Source: Microlunatus sp. Gsoil 973
Lineage (GTDB): Bacteria; Actinomycetota; Actinomycetes; Propionibacteriales; Propionibacteriaceae
Direction: 5' to 3'
NCBI RefSeq assembly: GCF_009707365.1
Contig: NZ_CP046122.1
Location: 3,286,001-3,350,000 of the forward strand
Length of the DNA stretch: 64,000 nucleotides
Below the pieces are notes generated by a model. That model was not told the DNA's origin. It saw only the letters and a list, made by a program, of their open reading frames with translations, and did no database searches. Made by a program: the position numbers and the translations under genes. This document shows positions 6,767 to 61,208 of this stretch, piece by piece (position 1 is the stretch's first letter; each line of letters starts with the position of its first letter).

Positions 6767-7129
6767 TCATCGGACCGGCCCGGCGCCGGCGGTGGCGGTG
6801 ATCACCACCGGCAGCATCGGCACCCGCGTCGGCACAGCTGCGGTGATCCGCACCGAGAGCACGAAGTCCGTCCGGTCACCGATGACTGAACATCCGGCCA
6901 GGTGCTGATCGTTCCGGGCGGCGATGGCCCGCGCCGCTGCGCAACCGTTCTCCCCCGTTCCGTACGCCTGTGCCCCGGCCAAGGCGGCCAGGTCGGCTGC
7001 GGCGGCAGCGCGGTGATGCGCCACCAGGAAGCGACCGAACACTGCGACGGCCGAGGTGAGGCTCAGCAGGAAGATCACCACGGTCAGTGCAAGCAGGGTG
7101 CCGCTTCCGCGCTGGGCAGTGGTGTTCAT
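6767..7129 (-). CDS. TadE-like protein of the helicase/secretion neighbourhood (Rv3654c-like)
   Basis: This is a 120-residue protein with one N-terminal membrane segment (about residues 9-33) after a short basic stretch (QRGSGTLL), followed by an Ala-rich helix with AADLAALAGAQA. This is typical of TadE/TadG-like minor pseudopilins and of Flp-associated proteins. Unlike the two genes upstream it lacks the Glu at position +5 after the Gly cleavage site, so it may not be a prepilin-peptidase substrate. It is the last gene of the Tad operon and overlaps the preceding stop by 4 bases. Confidence 0.8.
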   Translation of the reverse strand: MNTTAQRGSGTLLALTVVIFLLSLTSAVAVFGRFLVAHHRAAAAADLAALAGAQAYGTGENGCAAARAIAARNDQHLAGCSVIGDRTDFVLSVRITAAVPTRVPMLPVVITATAGAGPVR

Positions 7130-42237: not shown

Positions 42238-44728
42238 ATGCCGTTCAGCCCCAAGCGCGCGGGAAGCGTCGCCTACTCGGCTGCCATGTTTCTCGTGGTG
42301 AGCATGGTCGCAGGTCTCCTGGTCGCCGGGCTCGCCGTCCCGGTTGCGGCGATGGCGGGGGTGGGCGGTCGTGCCGCGGTCAAGACCGTCAACGATCTGC
42401 CACAGGACTTCACCACGCCGCCGCAGGCGATGAAGACCAAGGTGACCATGGCCAACGGCGACACGTTGGCGTACTTCTACGACCAGGACCGCATCTACAA
42501 GCCGCTGGACGACATCGCGCCGATCATGCGCGAGGCGCAGCTGGCGATCGAGGACCACCGCTTCTATCAGCACGGCGCGTTGGACGTCCAGGGCACGATC
42601 CGCGCGTTGCTGTCCAATGCCGCGGCAGGCGGCGTCACCCAGGGCGGGTCGAGCATCACCCAGCAGTACGTGAAGATGGTGCGCATCCAGGAGGCCCAGC
42701 TCGCCGGTGACGAGAAGGGCGTCAGAGAAGCCCAGGACGACACCGTCTCGCGGAAGATCCAGGAGCTCAAGTACGCGATCGGCCTGGAGAAGAAGCTGTC
42801 CAAGGACCAGATCCTCGAGCGCTACCTGAACATCGCCTATTACGGCGACGGTGCCTACGGTGTCGAGGCCGCCGCCCGGCACTACTTCGACACGTCGGCC
42901 AAGAAGTTGAGCCTGCCGGAGGCCGCCATGCTCGCGGGTCTTGTGCAGAGCCCGGATTCGGACAACCCGGTGCAGCACCCCGACGCCGCGATCGCCCGAC
43001 GCAATGTGGTGCTGGACCGGATGGCCGAGCTCAAGGTGATCACCGCCCACGACGCGGCCAAGGCCAAGAAGACCAAGTTCGACCAGGACAAGGTCCGGAG
43101 TTCTCCGAACGGCTGTGTCAGCAGCCGGTACCCGTTCCTGTGCACCTATGTCTACAACAGCTTGCTGAAGCTGCCCGCGCTGGGCAAGACCCAACAGGAC
43201 CGAGTGAACACGATCAAGCGTGGTGGCCTGACCGTCGAGACAGCGATCGACCCGAAGACCCAGGACGCGGCGCAGAAGGCGGTCAGCAACTACGTCGGGC
43301 CGAGGGACCCGGTGATCGCGACGATGTCGATGATCCAGCCGGGCACGGGATTGATCATCGGCATGGCCCAGAGCCGGCCGGAGATGGGCGGGGACGTCAA
43401 GAAGGGCGAGACCTACTACGACTACCCGGCGCCTCCGGATCTGGGCGGCAGTTCGGGTGGCTTCCAGTCCGGCTCGACCTTCAAGGCGATCACCATCGCC
43501 GCGGCATTGGAGGAGGGTGTCTCGCCGTCCAAGACCTACAACGCCCGCTCGCCGCTGCCGATGACGGGGACCCGCTGGAAGACCTGCGACGGCAACTTCA
43601 CGCTGACCGAGCCGTATTCGCCGAAGAACTCCACCGGTGTCAACGGCGTGATGAACATGCGCAAGGCGGCGGAGTACTCGGTCAACACCTACTTCCTGCA
43701 ACTGGAGCAGACCATCGGCCTGTGCCCGGTGGTCAAGATGGCCAGCAAGCTGGGCGTCAAGTTGGCGTCGGGACAGCCGATCGAGGATTCCGCGTACGCC
43801 TCGGCGCCCTCGCTGACCCTTGGTGTGGCCAACATTGCACCGCTCAGCCTGGCGGAGGCGTACGCGACCTTCGCTGCGCGCGGCATCCACTGCGATCCGA
43901 TCATCATCGACAAGATCACCAACTACCAGGGCAAGGACATCGACCCGCCGAGCGCCAACTGCAAACGGGTGATCTCCAAGGATGTCGCCGACGGAGTCAA
44001 CGATCTCCCTGCAGAGCGTGATGCAGGGCGGGGCGACCGGTTCGCCGGCACGACTGGATGACGGCCGACCCGAGGCGGGCAAGACGGGTACGACCGATGA
44101 CAACCAGGCGGTCTGGTTCGCCGGTTACACACCGGATCTGGCCGGAGTTGCCTCCATCGCCGAGGACGTCACCCGCAAACCGTTCCGGCACGGGCACGTC
44201 CGCTCGGGCGGTCTGCTCGGCTACCAGCTCGACACTGGTGTGATCCTGCAGGGCACCGGTGGCGGTGACGCCGGCGCCGGAATCTGGAAACCGGCAATGA
44301 CCAAGGCGCTCAAGGGCGTGGACCCCACACCCTTCCACGGCTACAAGAACAGCGACACCACCGACGGCCATCTGGTCGACGTACCCGACGTGTCGGGGAT
44401 GAGCGTCGGCAAGGCGACCCGGATCCTCGAAGAGGCGGGCTTCAGCGTGGTGCCGACGTCGATCTACAGCAACTCACCGCAGGGCTACTTCCTTGGCTTC
44501 TCCCAGTACGGCGGAAAGCTGCCGAAGTTCAGCACCATCTACGCGGTCTACTCCGCCGGTCCTGCGCCACAGAAGCAATCCGGCGGAGGCAGCAAGAAGA
44601 AGAGTGGCGGCAGCGACAACAACTCCGGAGGCGACAAGAAGTCCGGCGGTGACAAGAGCTCGGGTGGCGATAAGAAGTCTGGTGGCTCCGGTGGCTCCGG
44701 TGGCGACAAGAAGAACGGCAAGCACTGA
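42238..44728 (+). CDS. ponA2: Bifunctional class A penicillin-binding protein, PonA2-like (frameshifted)
   Basis: This enzyme builds peptidoglycan outside the membrane. One N-terminal membrane segment is followed by a GT51 glycosyltransferase (AIEDHRFYQHGALD, GGSSITQQYVKM) and a transpeptidase with the serine motif GSTFKAIT (about 412), SVN (about 481) and KTGT. A PASTA domain (VPDVSGMSVGKATRILEEAG) and a Lys/Gly/Ser-rich tail end it. The frame breaks after DVADGVNDL (near 44007) and resumes as LQSVMQGGATG...GKTGTTDDNQAVWF in another frame. One extra C in ctccctg accounts for it. Everything essential is present once that base is removed. Confidence 0.9.
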
Positions 44729-45316: not shown

Positions 45317-46251
45317 ATGCCTGACCGCTCCCCCGACAGACCCGTTCGGCCGCGGGTCGGATCGCCCGAGGGGCCGGAACGGTCGCCGCGTTCGGCGCCG
45401 GGTGTCTGGCCTACGCGGGGCTGTACGAGGTGCGTGCCTTCACTGTCCGCCGAGTTCGGATCCCGGTGCTCCCACGGGGCGCGCGGCCGATTCGCGTCCT
45501 TCACCTGTCCGATCTGCATCTGACGCCGTACCAGCAGGCGAAACAGCGATGGCTCTCCCGGCTTGCCGCCCTGGAGCCCGACCTGGTGATCAACACCGGT
45601 GACAACCTGGGGCATCCGGACGCCGTTCCGTACGTGACGATGAGCCTCGGGCGGTTGCTCGAGTTTCCGGGCGTGTTCGTCTGGGGCTCCAACGACTTTC
45701 ACGGACCGCGGCCCAAGAACCCGCTGCGCTACCTCACCCAGCCCTCTCACCAGCCCCAGCCGCGCGAGCCGGAACTGCCGTGGGAGGACCTTCGCAAGGC
45801 GTATGTCGATGCCGGCTGGGTCGACCTGAGCGAGGTCAGGGCACGACTTCAGATCGCCGGGCATGACCTGGAGTTCCGTGGCACCAGCGACGCCCACCTG
45901 AACATCGATCGGTACGGCGAGGTCGCCGGGCCGCCCGATCCGGCCGCCTCCGTCGCGTTGGGGGTCACCCACGCTCCGTACCGTCGCCTGCTGGATGCGA
46001 TGACCGCCGACGACCTGGATCTGGTCGTCGCCGGACACACCCACGGCGGGCAGGTCTGTGTCCCGGGCTATGGTGCGCTCGTCTCCAACTGCGATCTTGA
46101 TCCACGGCAAGCCAAGGGTTTGTCGACCTATCAGTACGCCGGCAAGCGAACCTTCCTGCACGTTTCTGCCGGTGTCGGGACGTCTCCGTACGCCCCGGTG
46201 CGGTTCGCGTGTCGACCCGAGGTCACGCTGATGACCCTGGTCGGCCGCTGA
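45317..46251 (+). CDS. Metallophosphoesterase, Rv3683-like (probable frameshift near N-terminus)
   Basis: The catalytic part has VLHLSDLHLTPYQQ (DxH), INTGDNLG (GD), WGSNDFHGP (GND-like), VTHAPY and VAGHTHGGQVCVPG, the full set of calcineurin-like metal ligands. An N-terminal membrane segment (VAAFGAGCLAYAGLYEVRAF) places it at the membrane, as in YaeI-type enzymes. The frame that codes this has no start codon between the stop at 45322 and a GTG at 45430, which lies inside the conserved part. ATG 45317 has a promoter-like box but is one frame off. A missing base near 45325-45400 is the likely reason. Confidence 0.82.
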
Positions 46252-46270
46252 CCGAATCCGTTGTCGCGGC

Positions 46271-46387
46271 TCAGAGACCGCCGCCGACGTTGCGTTGCAC
46301 CAACATCAGAACCCCTTTCAAGATCAAACCCGACACACCACGAACTGCTGGCCACAGACCGCCTCCGACGTTGCGCTGAGTGACCAT
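46271..46387 (-). CDS. Read-through unit: micro-ORF that lost its stop and fuses to the last unit
   Basis: The unit starting at the ATG 46387 reads MVTQRNVGGGLWPAV. The stop is replaced by TGG, so the frame runs on in phase into the last unit and ends after its MLVQRNVGGGL, giving 38 residues. It is a hypothetical product of the array's downstream end. Confidence 0.35.
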   Translation of the reverse strand: MVTQRNVGGGLWPAVRGVSGLILKGVLMLVQRNVGGGL

Positions 46388-47903
46388 GTCAAACCACCTC
46401 AAGATCAATCCCGACTCAACCCCCGGTCGCCGATCACAGACCACCACCGACGTTGCGCTGAACGAACATCTCCACTCCTCTCAAGATCGACCCCTATCAC
46501 CGAACAAGCAGTCTCAGAGACCGCCACCGACGTTGTACTGAACGAACATCTCCACTCCTCTCAAGATCGACCCCTATTACCGACAAGCAGTCTCAGAGAC
46601 CGCCACCGACGTTGTGCTGAACGAACATCTCCGCCTCCTTCCAAGATCAGAAACCAACAGCTCCGACAACCACGCCTCAGAGACCGCCACCGACGTTGTA
46701 CTGAACGAACATCTCCACTCCTCCCAAGATCGACCCCTATCACCGAACAAGCAGTCTCAGAGACCGCCACCGACGTTGTGCTGAACGAACATCTGAACCC
46801 CCTTCGAAAAGGTCCCGACTCAAACCACAGATCAGCAATCAGAGACCGCCGCCGACATTGCGCTGAACAAACATCCCTGCCTCCTTCCACATCGAAATCC
46901 GATCCAGTTCCCTGCCATCAATCAGAGACCGCCACCGACGTTGCGCTGAACGAACATCTCCACTCCTTTCAAGATCGACCCCTATCACCGAACAAGCAGT
47001 CTCAGAGACCACCACCGACGTTGCGCTGAACGAACATCTCCACTCCTTCCAAGATCAGAAACCAACAGCTCCGACAACCACGCCTCACAGACCCCCGCCG
47101 ACATTGCGCTGAACAAACATCCCTGCCTCCTTTCACATCGAAATCCGATCCAGTTCCCTGCCATCAATCAGAGACCGCCACCGACGTTGCGCTGAACGAA
47201 CATCCCCGCCTCCTTCCAAGATCAGAAACCAACAGCTCCGACAACTACGCCTCAGAGACCGCCACCGACGTTGTACTGAACGAACATCTCCACTCCTCTC
47301 AAAATCGACCCCTATCACCGAACAAGCAGTCTCAGAGACCGCCACCGACGTTGTACTGAACGAACATCTGAACCCCCTTCGAAAAAGTCCCGACTCAAAC
47401 CACAGATCAGCAATCAGAGACCGCCACCAACGTTGCGCTGAACAAACATCCCCGCCTCCTTCCAAGATCAGAAACCAACAGCTCCGACAACCACGCCTCA
47501 GAGACCTCCACCGACGTTGTACTGAACGAACATCTCCACTCCTCTCAAAATCGACCCCTGTCACCGAACAAGCAGTCTCAGAGACCGCCACCGACGTTGT
47601 ACTGAACGAACATCTGAACCCCCTTCGAAAAAGTCCCGACTCAAACCACAGATCAGCAATCAGAGACCGCCACCAACGTTGCGCTGAACAAACATCCCCG
47701 CCTCCTTCCAAGATCAGAAACCAACAGCTCCGACAACCACGCCTCAGAGACCTCCACCGACGTTGTACTGAACGAACATCTCCACTCCTCTCAAAATCGA
47801 CCCCTGTCACCGAACAAGCAGTCTCAGAGACCTCCACCAACGTTGCGCTGAACGAACATCTCCACTCCTCTCAAAATCGACCCCTATCACCGAACAAGCA
47901 GTC

Positions 47904-47939
47904 TCAGAGACCACCACCGACGTTGCACTGAACGAACAT
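47904..47939 (-). CDS. Micro-ORF with Cys at residue 5 (MFVQCNVGGGL)
   Basis: This is the only unit with TGC at codon 5. All other residues keep the consensus. Translation is predicted, not shown. Confidence 0.4.
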   Translation of the reverse strand: MFVQCNVGGGL

Positions 47940-48070
47940 CCCGCCCTCCTTCCAAGATCAGAAGCCAACAGCTCCGACAACCACGCCTCACAGACCCCCG
48001 CCGACATTGCGCTGAACAAACATCTGAAACCCCCTTCGAAAAAGTCCCGACTCAAACCACAGATCAGCGA

Positions 48071-48106
48071 TCAGAGACCGCCGCCGACATTGCGCTGAAC
48101 AAACAC
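48071..48106 (-). CDS. Micro-ORF with GTG start (VFVQRNVGGGL)
   Basis: The ATG is replaced by GTG, another valid start codon, with GGAAGGAGGCAGAG just upstream. This substitution keeps the unit translatable. Confidence 0.4.
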   Translation of the reverse strand: MFVQRNVGGGL

Positions 48107-48318
48107 CTCTGCCTCCTTCCAGGATCGACCCCAATCACCAAACAAGGCAGCCTCAGAGACCGCCACCGACGTTGTGCTGAACAAACATCCCCGCCTCCTT
48201 CCGTGTCGAATCAAGACCCGCCTCCCGGCGCCGATCAGAGACCGCCGCCAACATTGCGCTGAACCAACATCTCTCCCCTCCTTCCATGATCAAACCGACC
48301 CCCGGCCACGTACACCTG

Positions 48319-48354
48319 TCACAGACCGCCGCCGACATTGCGCTGAACGAACAT
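48319..48354 (-). CDS. First intact micro-ORF of the array (MFVQRNVGGGL)
   Basis: In the direction of transcription this is the first complete unit. The unit before it (48408-48442) is one base short: it starts ATGTCCGTTCAGCG, then shifts frame and would read NVGAGL only after a 1-base correction. Confidence 0.4.
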   Translation of the reverse strand: MFVQRNVGGGL

Positions 48355-48468
48355 CTCTCCACCCCTTTCCGTCGTAGACCACTACGCCATTTCAGAGACC
48401 GCGCGCGTCAAAGACCGGCGCCGACATTCGCTGAACGGACATGTTCACCGCCTCTGAAAGCAGCAGTC

Positions 48469-48505
48469 GGGGCTGGGAAGCCACATCCGTGGATTTCCCA
48501 ACCCC
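48469..48505. promoter_or_regulatory. Large inverted repeat at the head of the micro-ORF array
   Basis: GGGGCTGGGAAGCCAC (48469-48484) faces GTGGATTTCCCAACCCC (48489-48505) across a 4-base loop. Only a few pairs are wobble or bulged. A TACAAT box on the minus strand (48521-48516) would place the transcription start just before this hairpin, so it may form at the 5' end of the array RNA. Confidence 0.5.
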
Positions 48506-48585
48506 GTATGTAGGCATTGTACGGATGTTGACCGGCTCCAGCCTGCGATGAAAGAACCATTGCAAATGGCGATACTCGACCGGGA

Positions 48586-48591
48586 TACGAT
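48586..48591 (+). promoter_or_regulatory. -10 box TACGAT, leaderless start of the ArsR-like gene
   Basis: TACGAT ends six bases before the GTG at 48598. No ribosome binding site is visible. Confidence 0.45.
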
Positions 48592-48597
48592 GGCGCG

Positions 48598-49227
48598 GTG
48601 GCGCCTCCCGACGACGATGACGCAGGGCCCTGCCAGACACCTGAACTGTCGGTCGAAGCCTTGCTGAAGCTGGCCAACGTCGTCCGATTCCGTGCCTACA
48701 TCGCACTCCGCGCCTTTGGGTCACTGCGTGCCCGCCAGCTCGCCGAGTTCACCGGCGTGACCGAGACCAGCATGAACCGTCACCTGGACGTGCTGGCAGA
48801 GATCGGCTTCGCGACCGCCAAGCGCGTCGGCAAGACTCGCCAGTCCTGGCTCTGGTCGGCGGTCCCTGGCGGCGTACGGGTCGGTCGGATGGAAGGCGGG
48901 CAGATGCAGGATGCCGCCCTGGAGTGGCTGCGTGCCGTGAGCGGCGCCCAGGGCATCTTGGCGTCGCAGTGGCCGGCGGTCGCGCCCACTTGGCCGCAAG
49001 CCTGGCAGTCGGCTGCCGAAACGTCGGACTGGGTGATGCATCTGACCGCCGAGCAACTCGACGGGCTGGCGGCCGACCTGCGCTCGGTGGCGATGAAGTG
49101 GAAACAGGCCTCGGCCGCCAATGAACAAGCACGCGAACAACAGACGACCACGCCGGAGGATCCCGACTGGATCGCACCCGTCGTGGTGATCCTGAACGCG
49201 TTCCCCTACCCCCACCGGCCTGAATGA
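48598..49227 (+). CDS. ArsR-type winged-helix transcriptional regulator
   Basis: This is a 209-residue regulator. The winged helix lies at about 20-85: LSVEALLKLANVVRFRAYIALRAFGSLRARQLAEFTGVTETSMNRHLDVLAEIGF. The rest is a helical domain of unknown ligand (about 100-190). No metal-binding Cys pair is visible. It is transcribed divergently from the micro-ORF array and overlaps the MFS gene by 4 bases (ATGA), so it probably controls that exporter. It could also act on the array through the shared 160-bp region. Confidence 0.82.
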   Translation: MAPPDDDDAGPCQTPELSVEALLKLANVVRFRAYIALRAFGSLRARQLAEFTGVTETSMNRHLDVLAEIGFATAKRVGKTRQSWLWSAVPGGVRVGRMEGGQMQDAALEWLRAVSGAQGILASQWPAVAPTWPQAWQSAAETSDWVMHLTAEQLDGLAADLRSVAMKWKQASAANEQAREQQTTTPEDPDWIAPVVVILNAFPYPHRPE

Positions 49228-50474
49228 GCGGCTCGAAGGCGCTGACACTGCGGGAGACCATGCGCGCGGCGCCGCGGTGGGCGTTGGTCTATCTGCCCAC
49301 CAGCGCGCTGGACAGTCTGGTCGAAGCGCTGTGGTTGTTCACGCTCGGGTGGGAGGCGTCCCGCGCGGGATCGGCAGCCGGCCTGGTACTTGCCGCCGGC
49401 GCCGTTCCGGCCGTCGCGTTCGTCCTCTGGGGCGGCTCGCTCGCCGACCGCCTCGGTGCGCACCGCGTGGCGATCTGGACGATGGCCGCGCGAGTGGTCG
49501 TGATGGTCGCCTGGGCGGCGGTCGTCATCTCCGACACCGCTCCCATCTACCTTGCAGCCGCGGCGGCCTTCGCGGTGGGCGCGATCGCCGGGATCCATGA
49601 CCCGGCCGTGTCCGCAGTTCCGCAACTTCTGGTGCCGACCGGCGGCCTGGAAGCCAGTACGAACGCCCAACGGATCTCGGTACGGCTGGTGCAGACGGTC
49701 GGCCCGGCACTCGGTGGCGTGATCGCCGGCTGGTCGGGAATCGGCGCGGTGGTCGTAGTGGCCGCCGTCATCGGTCTGGTCCCGCTGGCCGGGTTCGCGC
49801 TGCTCCGGACAACCCGGCGGCCGGCAACCGACGGTCAGTTGCAGCATGCCGACACCGGTTGGCGCTCATTGCTGTCCGGATTCCGGTGGATCGCCCGGGA
49901 CCCGGTGATCCGCCGTACGGTCCCGGTCCAGGGCGTGATCAATCTGACCACCGCCTCTATCCTGATGGCCGCGCTGCCGCTGCAGGCACGAGCGTCGGGC
50001 TGGGGTGCCGACGTCTACGGATTCGCCACGGCCGGGTTCGGCGGCGGCATGTTGGCCGGAACTGTCATCGCCTTCAGTATCCGCGCCCGCGCACCGCGAC
50101 ATCGGGTGGCGATCGCGGTGGTGTGTGCGGCGATCACCAGCGTGTTCGTCGTCACCACCGGATGGGCACCGACGGCCGCGCTGGCCATTGTGTCGGCCGG
50201 GTTGATGGGCCTGTTTCTCGGCCCGGTGGGCTCGATCCTCACCGGGTGGACGATGGCGACAACAGCAGCCGCCGATCCATCCATGTACGGGCGGGTGTTC
50301 GCCGTTCTGCTGCTGGTGACCACGGCGGCCGAACCGATCGGCTATCTGGTGTTCTCGGCCCTCGCGGCAGTGACCTCGGTCGGGGTGGCAGCCGCAACGT
50401 TCGGCGCGGCCGGGGTGCTATTCGCCGGTCTCGCGCTGGGAGCGCGCGCTGTGCGTACGAGCAACCACGGCTGA
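49224..50474 (+). CDS. MFS transporter
   Basis: This is a 416-residue membrane protein with 12 predicted segments. Loop 2-3 has WGGSLADRLGAHRVAIWTMAARVVV, the typical MFS motif A (GxLaDrxGrr). PVQGVINLTTASILMAALPLQA begins the second half, and it ends in a short polar tail. It resembles the MFS_3/enterobactin exporter branch. It is coupled to the regulator upstream. The 3' end overlaps the convergent XRE gene by 57 bases. Confidence 0.88.
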   Translation: MSGSKALTLRETMRAAPRWALVYLPTSALDSLVEALWLFTLGWEASRAGSAAGLVLAAGAVPAVAFVLWGGSLADRLGAHRVAIWTMAARVVVMVAWAAVVISDTAPIYLAAAAAFAVGAIAGIHDPAVSAVPQLLVPTGGLEASTNAQRISVRLVQTVGPALGGVIAGWSGIGAVVVVAAVIGLVPLAGFALLRTTRRPATDGQLQHADTGWRSLLSGFRWIARDPVIRRTVPVQGVINLTTASILMAALPLQARASGWGADVYGFATAGFGGGMLAGTVIAFSIRARAPRHRVAIAVVCAAITSVFVVTTGWAPTAALAIVSAGLMGLFLGPVGSILTGWTMATTAAADPSMYGRVFAVLLLVTTAAEPIGYLVFSALAAVTSVGVAAATFGAAGVLFAGLALGARAVRTSNHG

Positions 50475-50756
50475 GGATCGTTCCCGGGCGATGTATCCGG
50501 CCAAGGATGACGGCGTCGCCGATTCGATGTCCGGATCGAAGAACCAGTTCGCCGGTACTCCGGTCGCGGCGATGAGAGCCGCGACCGTGTTAAACCTCGG
50601 ATCTTCGATCTCCCCGCGGATCAACTTGTAGCAATGGTTCTTCGACAGCTCGCACCCGGCCTCGGCCATCGCTTGGCGCAGCTGAGGTCCATTGAGCCCG
50701 CTGAAGTCGATAGCGACTTGGGCCCGCTCGGCGAAGTTCACAACTCGTGTCGGCAC
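50418..50756 (-). CDS. XRE-family helix-turn-helix regulator
   Basis: This is a 112-residue protein. The helix-turn-helix reads LNGPQLRQAMAEAGCELSKNHCYKLIRGEIEDPRFNTVAALIAATGVPANWFF, a Cro/C1-type domain near residues 20-75. The remainder is charged and may be disordered. The GTG start lies at the predicted transcription start, so the mRNA is probably leaderless. The upstream DNA is AT-rich and has two inverted repeats that could be its operators. Confidence 0.78.
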   Translation of the reverse strand: MPTRVVNFAERAQVAIDFSGLNGPQLRQAMAEAGCELSKNHCYKLIRGEIEDPRFNTVAALIAATGVPANWFFDPDIESATPSSLAGYIARERSSAVVARTHSARSQRETGE

Positions 50757-50763
50757 GAGGTAT

Positions 50764-50793
50764 ATCTTAATGATACTTCTCTATTTCTGGCAA
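50764..50793 (-). promoter_or_regulatory. Promoter of the XRE gene (TTGCCA-18-TAAGAT)
   Basis: On the minus strand TTGCCA (50793-50788) and TAAGAT (50769-50764) are 18 bases apart. The start would fall near 50757, next to the GTG at 50756. This is one of the clearest sigma-70-type promoters in the window. Confidence 0.6.
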
Positions 50794-50805
50794 GTTCTTG
50801 CAGAA
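50785..50805. promoter_or_regulatory. Inverted repeat over the XRE promoter, candidate operator
   Basis: TTCTGGCAAG (50785-50794) and CTTGCAGAA (50797-50805) are an inverted repeat with one extra base in the left arm. It covers the -35 box of the XRE gene, as expected of an autoregulatory site. Confidence 0.45.
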
Positions 50806-50944
50806 TCCTCTTACGCGTGCGCTACTCTATTGACAGCGGCACAGAAGGCCGGGGCAAGTATCTTTTACATGTACCCCTTCGAAGCCGTCGTGCGAGCCAC
50901 ATAGTGGCGCCATCCGGGGGAATGGAAATCCGCACCTTGAGCGT

Positions 50945-50978
50945 GGGGTAGTCCTGACGGCCAGGTCAGGGCTACCCC
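50945..50978. terminator. Strong orphan hairpin
   Basis: GGGGTAGTCCTGAC (50945-50958) pairs with GTCAGGGCTACCCC (50965-50978) with one G-T wobble and a 6-base loop. No supported gene ends here; the stretch 50757-51089 has only chance open frames. It may end an unrecognised small RNA or the XRE-side region. Confidence 0.5.
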
Positions 50979-51089
50979 GCCTCGAGCAAGATCCGATGAT
51001 CACGACTTGCACCGCCGCTCAGGCATACCGATTCGAAGTGTTCGGTTGCCGTGGGCTACACTCTCCGAGGCCCTGTTCTTCAGGGCCAC

Positions 51090-51166
<77 letters not shown>

Positions 51167-59919: not shown

Positions 59920-61208
59920 GTGAAGGCGCAGTGGCGGGTCTTGACCGAGCATCCGAATTTCCGGCGACTGTTCGTCGGCAACTCGATCTCCCTTCTCGGC
60001 TCGAGCGTGACGACTGTTGCGCTGCCCCTGACCGCGGTCGTAGCCCTCGGTGCGTCGCCGGTTCAGATGGGCACCCTCGGAGCCGTTGCCTTCCTTCCCC
60101 ACTTGATCTTGGGCCTGCCTACCGGCGTGTGGGTTGACCGGCTGTCGTACCGCCGCGTCATCATCGCCGCTGATCTGCTGGCCGCGGCCACCCTGGCAGC
60201 AGTACCGCTGCTGGCTCTGACCGGTCTCCTGCAGATGTGGCACCTGTATCTGGTTGTGGTGATCACCGGCGCGGGCAGCCTCTTTTCCACGATCGCGGGC
60301 CAGTCGTTCGCCCCGCAGTTGGTGCCGCGTGGCGAACTGTTGGCAGCCAACAGCACGTTCGCCCTCAGCAATTCTGTCGTTGCCACCACCGGCAGCGCGG
60401 TGGGTGGCGTCCTGATCCAACTCCTGACCGCTCCGGTGGCGATCGCTGTCGACGCCGCGTCGTTCGTCCTGTCGGCTGTCTCGAAAGCTCGGATCGACGT
60501 TCCAGGTGGCTCCGCTGACACCCGGCTCGCCAAGGAGCCGATCTTGACCGGTATCTGGATCGGGGTGCGGGCCGCGCTCGCACACCCTGCGTTGCGGGCG
60601 ACGACGATCGCCGCCACGGTCGGCGCGTTGGCCGGTCAGATGCAGCTGGTGATCGTGATGCTGTTTCTGGTTCGAGATCTCGGGTTGTCGGCCGGTGTCG
60701 TCGGACTGATGGTCGCCGCGGGTGGGATCGCCGGAATTGTCGGCGCGGCCGTCGGGGTGCCGATCACCAGTCGTCTCGGCAACGGGCGGCCTTCATCGCC
60801 GGCATGACGCTGTCCAGCCTGGCCGGATTGGTGATGGCTACCGCCGACGGGCCGGCTGCCCTGGCGATAACTGCCGTGATCGTGGCGCAATTGCTCCGGG
60901 GTTGGGGGCCGACGCTGTACGGGATCAACCAACAGACGATCCGCCAGACCCTGGTCCCGCGGGAACTCCTCGCCCGAACGCAGGCCACCTGGCGATTCCT
61001 GGTCTACGGAATGCAGCCGGTCGGTGCACTCCTCGGCGGCACCCTGGGCTCGGTCTTCGGATTTCGCGCCACCCTGGTGATCAGCAGTCTGATCATGTTG
61101 CTCGGCACCGGCTTCGCACTGTTAAGCCCGTTGCGTACCATGCGCCGACTCCCGGCTGCGGCCGTGGCTGGGCCGTCGACACGTTCGCAACACGAGAATG
61201 CGCAGTGA
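59920..61208 (+). CDS. MFS transporter (frameshifted)
   Basis: The first part (59920-60794) starts WRVLTEHPNFRRLFVGNSISLLGSSVTTVALPL and has motif A as LPTGVWVDRLSYRRVI. The frame then leaves after GNGR at about 60790, and AFIAGMTLSSLAGLVMAT...GINQQTIRQTLVPRELLAR continues in another frame to 61208. One base is missing from gggcggcc. When joined, the protein has 12 segments and about 430 residues. It follows the ArsR-like gene and may be its target. Confidence 0.83.

Follow-up and report, generated by a model that had tools for sequence, protein, structure and literature searches.

A tandem array of 12-codon frames with signs of peptide-level selection in an apparently relocatable regulator-exporter cassette of Microlunatus

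Layout of the array and its neighbouring genes

The DNA analysed here, referred to as the window, is a stretch of 64,000 nucleotides from the genome of Microlunatus sp. Gsoil 973 (NZ_CP046122.1, positions 3,286,001 to 3,350,000). Between positions 46271 and 48442 its minus strand carries 27 tandem units, with starts running from 48442 down to 46306 and including those at 47695 and 47449. Each unit comprises a spacer with a purine-rich SD site at its end, followed by a frame of 12 codons. The 26 spacers are 43 to 52 bases long, giving a start-to-start distance of 79 to 88 bases that is not kept in frame. The 12-codon frame is intact and ends in GGGL-stop in 25 of the 27 units, with the general form M[FL]VQxNVGGGL-stop. 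Among these 25 frames, 24 start with ATG and one, at 48106, with GTG, and the encoded peptides are MFVQRNVGGGL (11 units), MFVQYNVGGGL (7), MFVQHNVGGGL (3), MLVQRNVGGGL (2), MFVQCNVGGGL (1), and FVQRNVGGGL following the GTG start (1). A recount of the units, complete frames, and GTG start agrees with the first-pass annotation of this DNA, which had listed the same numbers over the same interval.

The remaining units have decayed in different ways. Unit 1 (48407 to 48442, minus strand) is missing one base in the frame and reads MSVQR and then, in another frame, NVGAGL-stop. Unit 26 (46387 to 46352) begins with MVTQ, where the third residue is the T also found in the peptide of Microlunatus endophyticus described below, and its TGA stop is changed to TGG. 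Because of this change, units 26 and 27 are fused in frame and form a 38-residue frame (46271 to 46387, minus strand) with two copies of the peptide, MVTQRNVGGGLWPAVRGVSGLILKGVLMLVQRNVGGGL. Clustered at a cut-off of 85%, the spacers form ten families, which succeed one another as ABCDEFGGFEGFEGFHFGHEGFGGIJ. Families E, F, G, and H recur, partly as three-unit blocks, which accords with a 246-base period in the array and with a stretch of 272 bases that is repeated exactly at that distance, and the outermost units have spacer families that are each seen once. A two-unit pattern of the form SD-ATG-N30-TGA matches 16 times in the window, compared with 0.01 matches expected from shuffled sequence. 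Rfam gave no match at gathering score in the window, tRNA-Pro excepted, and none at E≤5 between 46200 and 48650. One terminator-like site lies within the array, where 3.0 are expected by chance. The first-pass annotation knew of no described locus of this type, and in the parts of the open-licence literature accessible to us we likewise found no described array of this kind.

A divergent region (48443 to 48597) separates the array from a plus-strand gene for an ArsR-like winged-helix regulator of 209 residues (48598 to 49227). On the array strand this region contains a long hairpin (48506 to 48468) whose outer stem has 12 pairs; it might act as an operator or attenuator, or might stabilise the RNA. 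A search for a sigma-70 consensus promoter on either strand between 46000 and 48800, and at the M. endophyticus array, gave none, and the divergent regions of the two species share no 8-mer that could serve as a common operator. They also lack perfect inverted arms of at least 6 bases with a gap of up to 14, the gap of the hairpin at 48468 to 48506 being wider. The regulator matches NF033788 at E 1.7e-5, which is below the cut-off of that model, and has no Pfam hit; its structure prediction gave a poor model with a mean pLDDT of 37. It is followed on the plus strand by an MFS exporter gene (MFS_1/MFS_3; 49224 to 50474), the product of which is distantly like TIGR00900, Tet(V), EntS, and Mef(B), all below the curated cut-offs. 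The nearest named families of the pump export drugs and siderophores rather than peptides. A minus-strand gene (50418 to 50756) that converges on the MFS gene encodes a protein of 112 residues with no Pfam or NCBIfam hit, which on our own reading is XRE-like. A scan of 28 proteins encoded around the array revealed no recognisable peptide-modifying or immunity function, and no modifying enzyme was noticed on reading the corresponding cassette of M. endophyticus. Further along the window, between 58874 and 61208, there is a second ArsR/MarR-type regulator gene followed by an MFS gene in overlapping frames (59920 to 60807 and 60804 to 61208); inspection of the sequence upstream of this regulator revealed no micro-ORF array.

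Codon-level variation and translation signals

The 25 intact frames comprise 16 distinct sequences, and the pattern of their differences suggests constraint at the level of the peptide. Ten columns vary within codons 2 to 11, and eight of these are third codon positions (hypergeometric P 2.9e-4). The other two variable columns are the first two positions of codon 5, at which R, H, Y, and C alternate. Synonymous changes account for 10 of the 13 derived states, compared with 24 of the 90 possible changes (P 2.3e-4). Parsimony on a tree of the spacers places 30 of 41 changes at third positions for the 25 intact units, or 32 of 46 when unit 26 is included, with a P value that is too small because spacers and frames have recombined and the changes are not independent.

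We also simulated the substitutions with one chosen ORF per spacer family (n=10), placing the same 30 substitutions at random and treating the families as independent, with D and G in fact partly related. There were 7 residue changes, compared with 17.4 expected (P 1.5e-4), and none between N6 and L11, where 10.0 were expected (0 of 20000 trials). The number of intact frames, 9 of 10 compared with 6.4 expected, did not differ significantly (P 0.07). Between families, the spacers have a mean identity of 0.64 (0.58 when shuffled), which falls to 0.59 (0.56 when shuffled) when the last 20 bases are removed; families D and G are the exception, with an identity of 0.81. For pairs of units with spacers less than 90% identical, the ORFs are 86-89% identical. 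NVGGGL is constant across ten spacer families that, from these comparisons, appear mostly unrelated apart from their SD end.

Initiation signals are strong throughout the array. The predicted duplex with the anti-SD sequence has an energy of -11.3 to -16.2 kcal/mol in 27 of 27 window units and of -16.9 to -17.3 in all three units of the M. endophyticus array. As controls, the mean is -7.3 over every 20-mer of the array and -4.55 over 400 random 20-mers of the window, and nine neighbouring genes, with starts picked by us, have energies of +0.5 to -9.6. In the predicted RNA, the accessibility of the SD sites is 0.52 in the window array, compared with an average of 0.38, and 0.42 in M. endophyticus, compared with an average of 0.54, a contrast from which nothing is concluded. 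The SD strengths suggest that the units are translated.

Other sources of the column pattern were considered and rejected. A frame on the opposite strand has the same columns as the third positions, but it contains a stop inside the window unit and differs in M. endophyticus. For a tandem repeat with no coding function, substitutions would ignore codon position, which they do not. The statements of the first-pass annotation that each unit has an SD-like site, that the units differ mainly at third codon positions, and that this reflects selection on a translated peptide all stand. At the level of sequence, selection on a translated peptide is well supported by the excess of third-position and synonymous changes, the six constant C-terminal residues, the SD site in every unit, and a second array that encodes a related peptide with 3 of 3 frames intact. 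Indels and stop codons falling freely inside the frames of homologous arrays had been named as evidence against this view, and the single homologue, that of M. endophyticus, has none.

A second array, the cassette, and its distribution

The first-pass annotation had proposed a search of related genomes for tandem short frames, and a related array is present in M. endophyticus CGMCC 4.7306 (NZ_BMMZ01000009.1). It consists of three tandem units, 80 bases apart, that encode MTTQINIGSGL-stop, with AAGGAGGTGA or AAGGGGGTGA ahead of the start. The array lies upstream of the regulator gene and is divergent from it, in the same orientation as in the window. Between the two species, a unit is alike at 25 of 36 bases in DNA and at 7 of 12 positions in protein when the stop is counted. 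The peptides have in common M, Q, N, G, G, and L as well as a position that is V or I, and they differ at residues 2, 3, and 5, of which residue 5 also varies within the window array. An in-frame ATG upstream of the first M. endophyticus micro-ORF would extend it to MSGTRGNNGEGGDLMTTQINIGSGL (positions 6834 to 6911 of the extracted locus, L041). A strong hairpin follows the third unit, a terminator-like site is found 160 bases past the array (0.8 expected by chance), and a co-oriented, unrelated gene begins ~470 bases downstream of the array, beyond the hairpin.

In the window, the array and its partners lie between a plus-strand metallophosphoesterase gene (45430 to 46251) on the left and a plus-strand tRNA-Pro (CGG) gene (51090 to 51166) on the right. 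The gap between these flanking genes is ~58, 58, 120, and 229 bases in the four other Microlunatus examined, all of which, M. endophyticus included, have the short form. In the window the same gap measures 4.8 kb and is occupied by the module. Aligned to the empty M. endophyticus site, the window sequence matches up to 46251 and again from ~51026, which sets the outer limits of the inserted cassette at 46252 to 51025. In M. endophyticus, the module is instead on contig C9, with the empty metallophosphoesterase/tRNA-Pro site on contig C16. Its regulator, MFS exporter, and XRE-like protein are 77-78%, 65%, and 78% identical, respectively, to those of the window. The array and these three genes occur together in both of the genomes with a regulator at E≤1e-30, and since the linkage is at different sites, the four parts have been kept together at two sites. 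As the module fills the gap in the window and is found elsewhere in M. endophyticus, the comparison of the two sequences places the array in what appears to be a relocatable cassette. No direct repeat of more than 8 bases was found at the cassette edges, and no integrase or transposase was seen on reading the gene content at either locus.

The array has a narrow distribution. With a relaxed peptide pattern, it was found in 2 of 198 genomes of the family, those of the window and M. endophyticus; a third family genome gave an unrelated single match with two mismatches and no stop. The same pattern detects 2 of 20 genomes of the genus, as does the C-terminal core alone. A strict pattern, which is unable to match the M. 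endophyticus peptide, was found in 1 of 96 relatives, the window's own genome. An exact pattern run against a collection of 84,980 species, from which the window's own record may be absent, returned the M. endophyticus array and two single matches, which were rejected as one has no clear SD and the other has an internal stop. No peptide pattern was found in viral contigs, and the array DNA had no match among plasmids and phages. The regulator is similarly restricted: at E≤1e-30, a scan of 293 genomes of the order detects it in just the two that have the array. Some regulator match is present in 14 of the 20 genus genomes, with only that of M. endophyticus close besides the window's own. Among 394 genomes of the class, one regulator other than the window's was found at E≤1e-14, with 32% identity, and none was confirmed in viral contigs.

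To cover other peptides, we used two-unit and three-unit patterns that fix 12 codons and a TGA stop, so that arrays of other lengths would escape them. The two-unit design occurs in 14 of 394 class genomes, with 16 matches in the window's genome and one or two in each of the 13 others, and two genomes gave a single match each with the reversed control. No pair of similar micro-ORFs was present at 13 of the 14 loci from those 13 other genomes. At the remaining locus (genome G451, locus L065, 1345 to 1590), MRRWRR[CW]GAVDDS-stop occurs twice between two larger genes. These copies, ~136 bases apart, give no coding signal because there are only two and they are near-identical; chance or plain duplication, while not proven, may account for this repeat. 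The surroundings of the copies are rich in GATCATG/CATGATC, and a 39-base tandem repeat of 4.7 copies is found at 2443 to 2627 of the same locus. The three-unit pattern matched three viral contigs, none of which has repeated peptides, and these were discarded.

Candidate functions of the array

The array works most like tandem leaderless peptide genes, yet it is not classed with them, and each known family with which we compared it has a defining feature that the array lacks. The PSM alpha genes are leaderless and tandem and have separate SD sites, but there are four of them, they are served by an ABC exporter, and their amphipathic peptides are ~2 times the length of the 11-mer. In the accessible part of the published account, PSM peptides bind PmtR, a GntR-type repressor of their Pmt transport system, and thereby induce the system (PMC5080381). 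The likeness to PSM-Pmt of Staphylococcus aureus lies in short peptides, a dedicated transporter, and a repressor of that transporter, and a corresponding role for the cassette would be assigned by analogy, with an MFS_1/MFS_3 pump and an ArsR-like regulator instead of the ABC transporter PmtABCD and the GntR-type PmtR. Leaderless bacteriocins, such as the aureocin A53-like and thucin-like groups, also have tandem genes with no leader sequence. According to the accessible text of PMC11580447, however, predicted members have a mean length of 50, a mean charge of 4.63, and up to eight core peptides per cluster. The window peptide, which has 11 residues, is glycine-rich, and contains at most one basic residue, is set apart from them by length and composition.

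Microcin C7 provides another tiny peptide gene that adjoins an MFS exporter: the heptapeptide gene mccA lies beside the gene for the exporter MccC, and production requires the adenylating enzyme MccB. That system has a single peptide gene and not a tandem array, and no MccB-type adenylating enzyme was found among the 28 proteins scanned or noticed in the M. endophyticus locus. MIRU elements, in the accessible part of their description, are repeated units of an actinobacterium that hold a small frame and are apparently mobile (PMC12548453). The units of the window differ in lying 43-52 bases apart, in having their own SD, and in the window in having no co-oriented gene after them. Streptomyces plasmids carry regulator and MFS pairs with the same gene order in 5 of 5 loci, with regulators 27-30% identical, but the same five loci have no repeated micro-ORF; a pump and regulator can therefore work without the peptide. 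A leader peptide or attenuator has to lie upstream of a co-oriented regulated gene, whereas the array reads away from the regulator. The first-pass annotation had offered a leader-type sensor as one option, and for a downstream gene this is unlikely, because the next gene in the window is convergent and the downstream genes are unlike in the two species.

Several rival explanations were weighed. The peptide could act inside the cell as a short-lived ligand of the ArsR-like regulator that reports translation capacity, so that a translation inhibitor would derepress the efflux pump and the array would amplify the signal. The strong, separate initiation sites fit such a sensor, as does divergence from the regulator of a pump that is distantly like Tet(V) and Mef(B) (below cut-offs), exporters of ribosome-targeting drugs; the likeness of the pump to Tet(V), Mef(B), and EntS would permit the model. 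We nevertheless consider it unlikely, with related regulator-pump pairs managing without an array and 27 copies seemingly beyond need. The unusually strong SD in every unit could also mean that the RNA acts at the level of the ribosome, either as a sink for ribosomes or anti-SD sequences or with the frames keeping a long RNA covered by ribosomes, and that the peptide is irrelevant. ORF and initiation footprint together would span most of each 80-base unit, as this explanation expects. However, a sink needs neither NVGGGL nor a fixed frame length, the peptide core is held through synonymous changes and largely across species, and there is no common downstream gene to protect, which leaves this explanation rather improbable.

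RiPP precursors can be very short and can be encoded in tandem, and the 11-mer could be a whole precursor modified by enzymes encoded elsewhere. No modifying enzyme was recognised in the flanking proteins scanned (8 + 10 + 10), however, and we give this RiPP-like reading a low probability. The tandem toxin-peptide repeats of E. coli (Ldr, Ibs) offer a precedent for units that each pair a toxic peptide with an antisense RNA, as in type I toxin-antitoxin systems, but the peptide is rich in glycine and not long enough to form a membrane helix, and neither strand has a sigma-70 consensus promoter; this origin is very improbable. Finally, the array might be an old micro-gene with no function that was duplicated in tandem and homogenised by recombination. 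The 246-base period and exact 272-base copy do point to recent duplication, the relative has just three units, and there are two decayed units, one at an end of the array and one adjoining the other end. Homogenisation is blind to codon position, yet third positions vary and first and second positions hardly do, and there is little chance that the array is a functionless repeat of this kind.

The reading that we favour, tentatively and with somewhat less than even confidence, is that the array makes a leaderless peptide at high dose under control of the regulator, and that the peptide is handled by the pump. A minus-strand RNA would contain 25 intact 12-codon genes with a strong ribosome-binding site apiece and would give rise to one leaderless 11-residue peptide at high dose, whose conserved core, Q-x-N-[VI]-G-[GS]-G-L, runs to the free C terminus. 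Together with the divergent ArsR-like regulator, the MFS exporter, and the small XRE-like protein, the array would make up a small relocatable cassette, of which it is one arm. The regulator would control the divergent sequence that separates it from the array, and the pump would export the peptide or protect the cell from it. For this sequence of events we infer transcription, translation, ArsR-like regulation, export, and any outside target, and both the role of the peptide and its link to the pump are presumed. The conservation of the C-terminal half up to the carboxyl end, the free middle residue, and the separate initiation sites suit a peptide whose ends are defined and that is needed in quantity, and would suit a leader or coupled frame less well. 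Because the constant partners of the array are a regulator and an exporter, a regulator-controlled peptide that is exported or tolerated by way of the pump would be favoured, by analogy.

A broader proposal, which we regard as possible but put forward with more reserve, is that the locus represents a new way of organising genes. A mobile cassette would set how much of one 11-residue peptide is made by repeating the whole 12-codon gene, ribosome-binding site included, in tandem; it would bring a regulator and an exporter dedicated to the peptide, and might serve signalling, antagonism, or self-maintenance among related soil actinobacteria. Micro-genes of this kind are below the usual annotation size, and an entire class of loci that make peptides may thus escape notice. 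Here, codon-level selection is visible on a 12-codon gene in 25 intact copies, and because this gene is linked to a regulator and a pump within a relocating cassette, its function can be tested, for example in M. endophyticus CGMCC 4.7306.

Elsewhere in the window, a penicillin-binding protein gene (42238 to 44728) is apparently split, by a frameshift or a sequencing error. One frame (42238 to 44061) encodes the transglycosylase and most of the transpeptidase, and the remainder, with the KTGT motif, is in an overlapping frame (43982 to 44728). Tandem 18/36-base repeats at 44608 to 44713 encode a GGDKKSGG-type tail of this protein.
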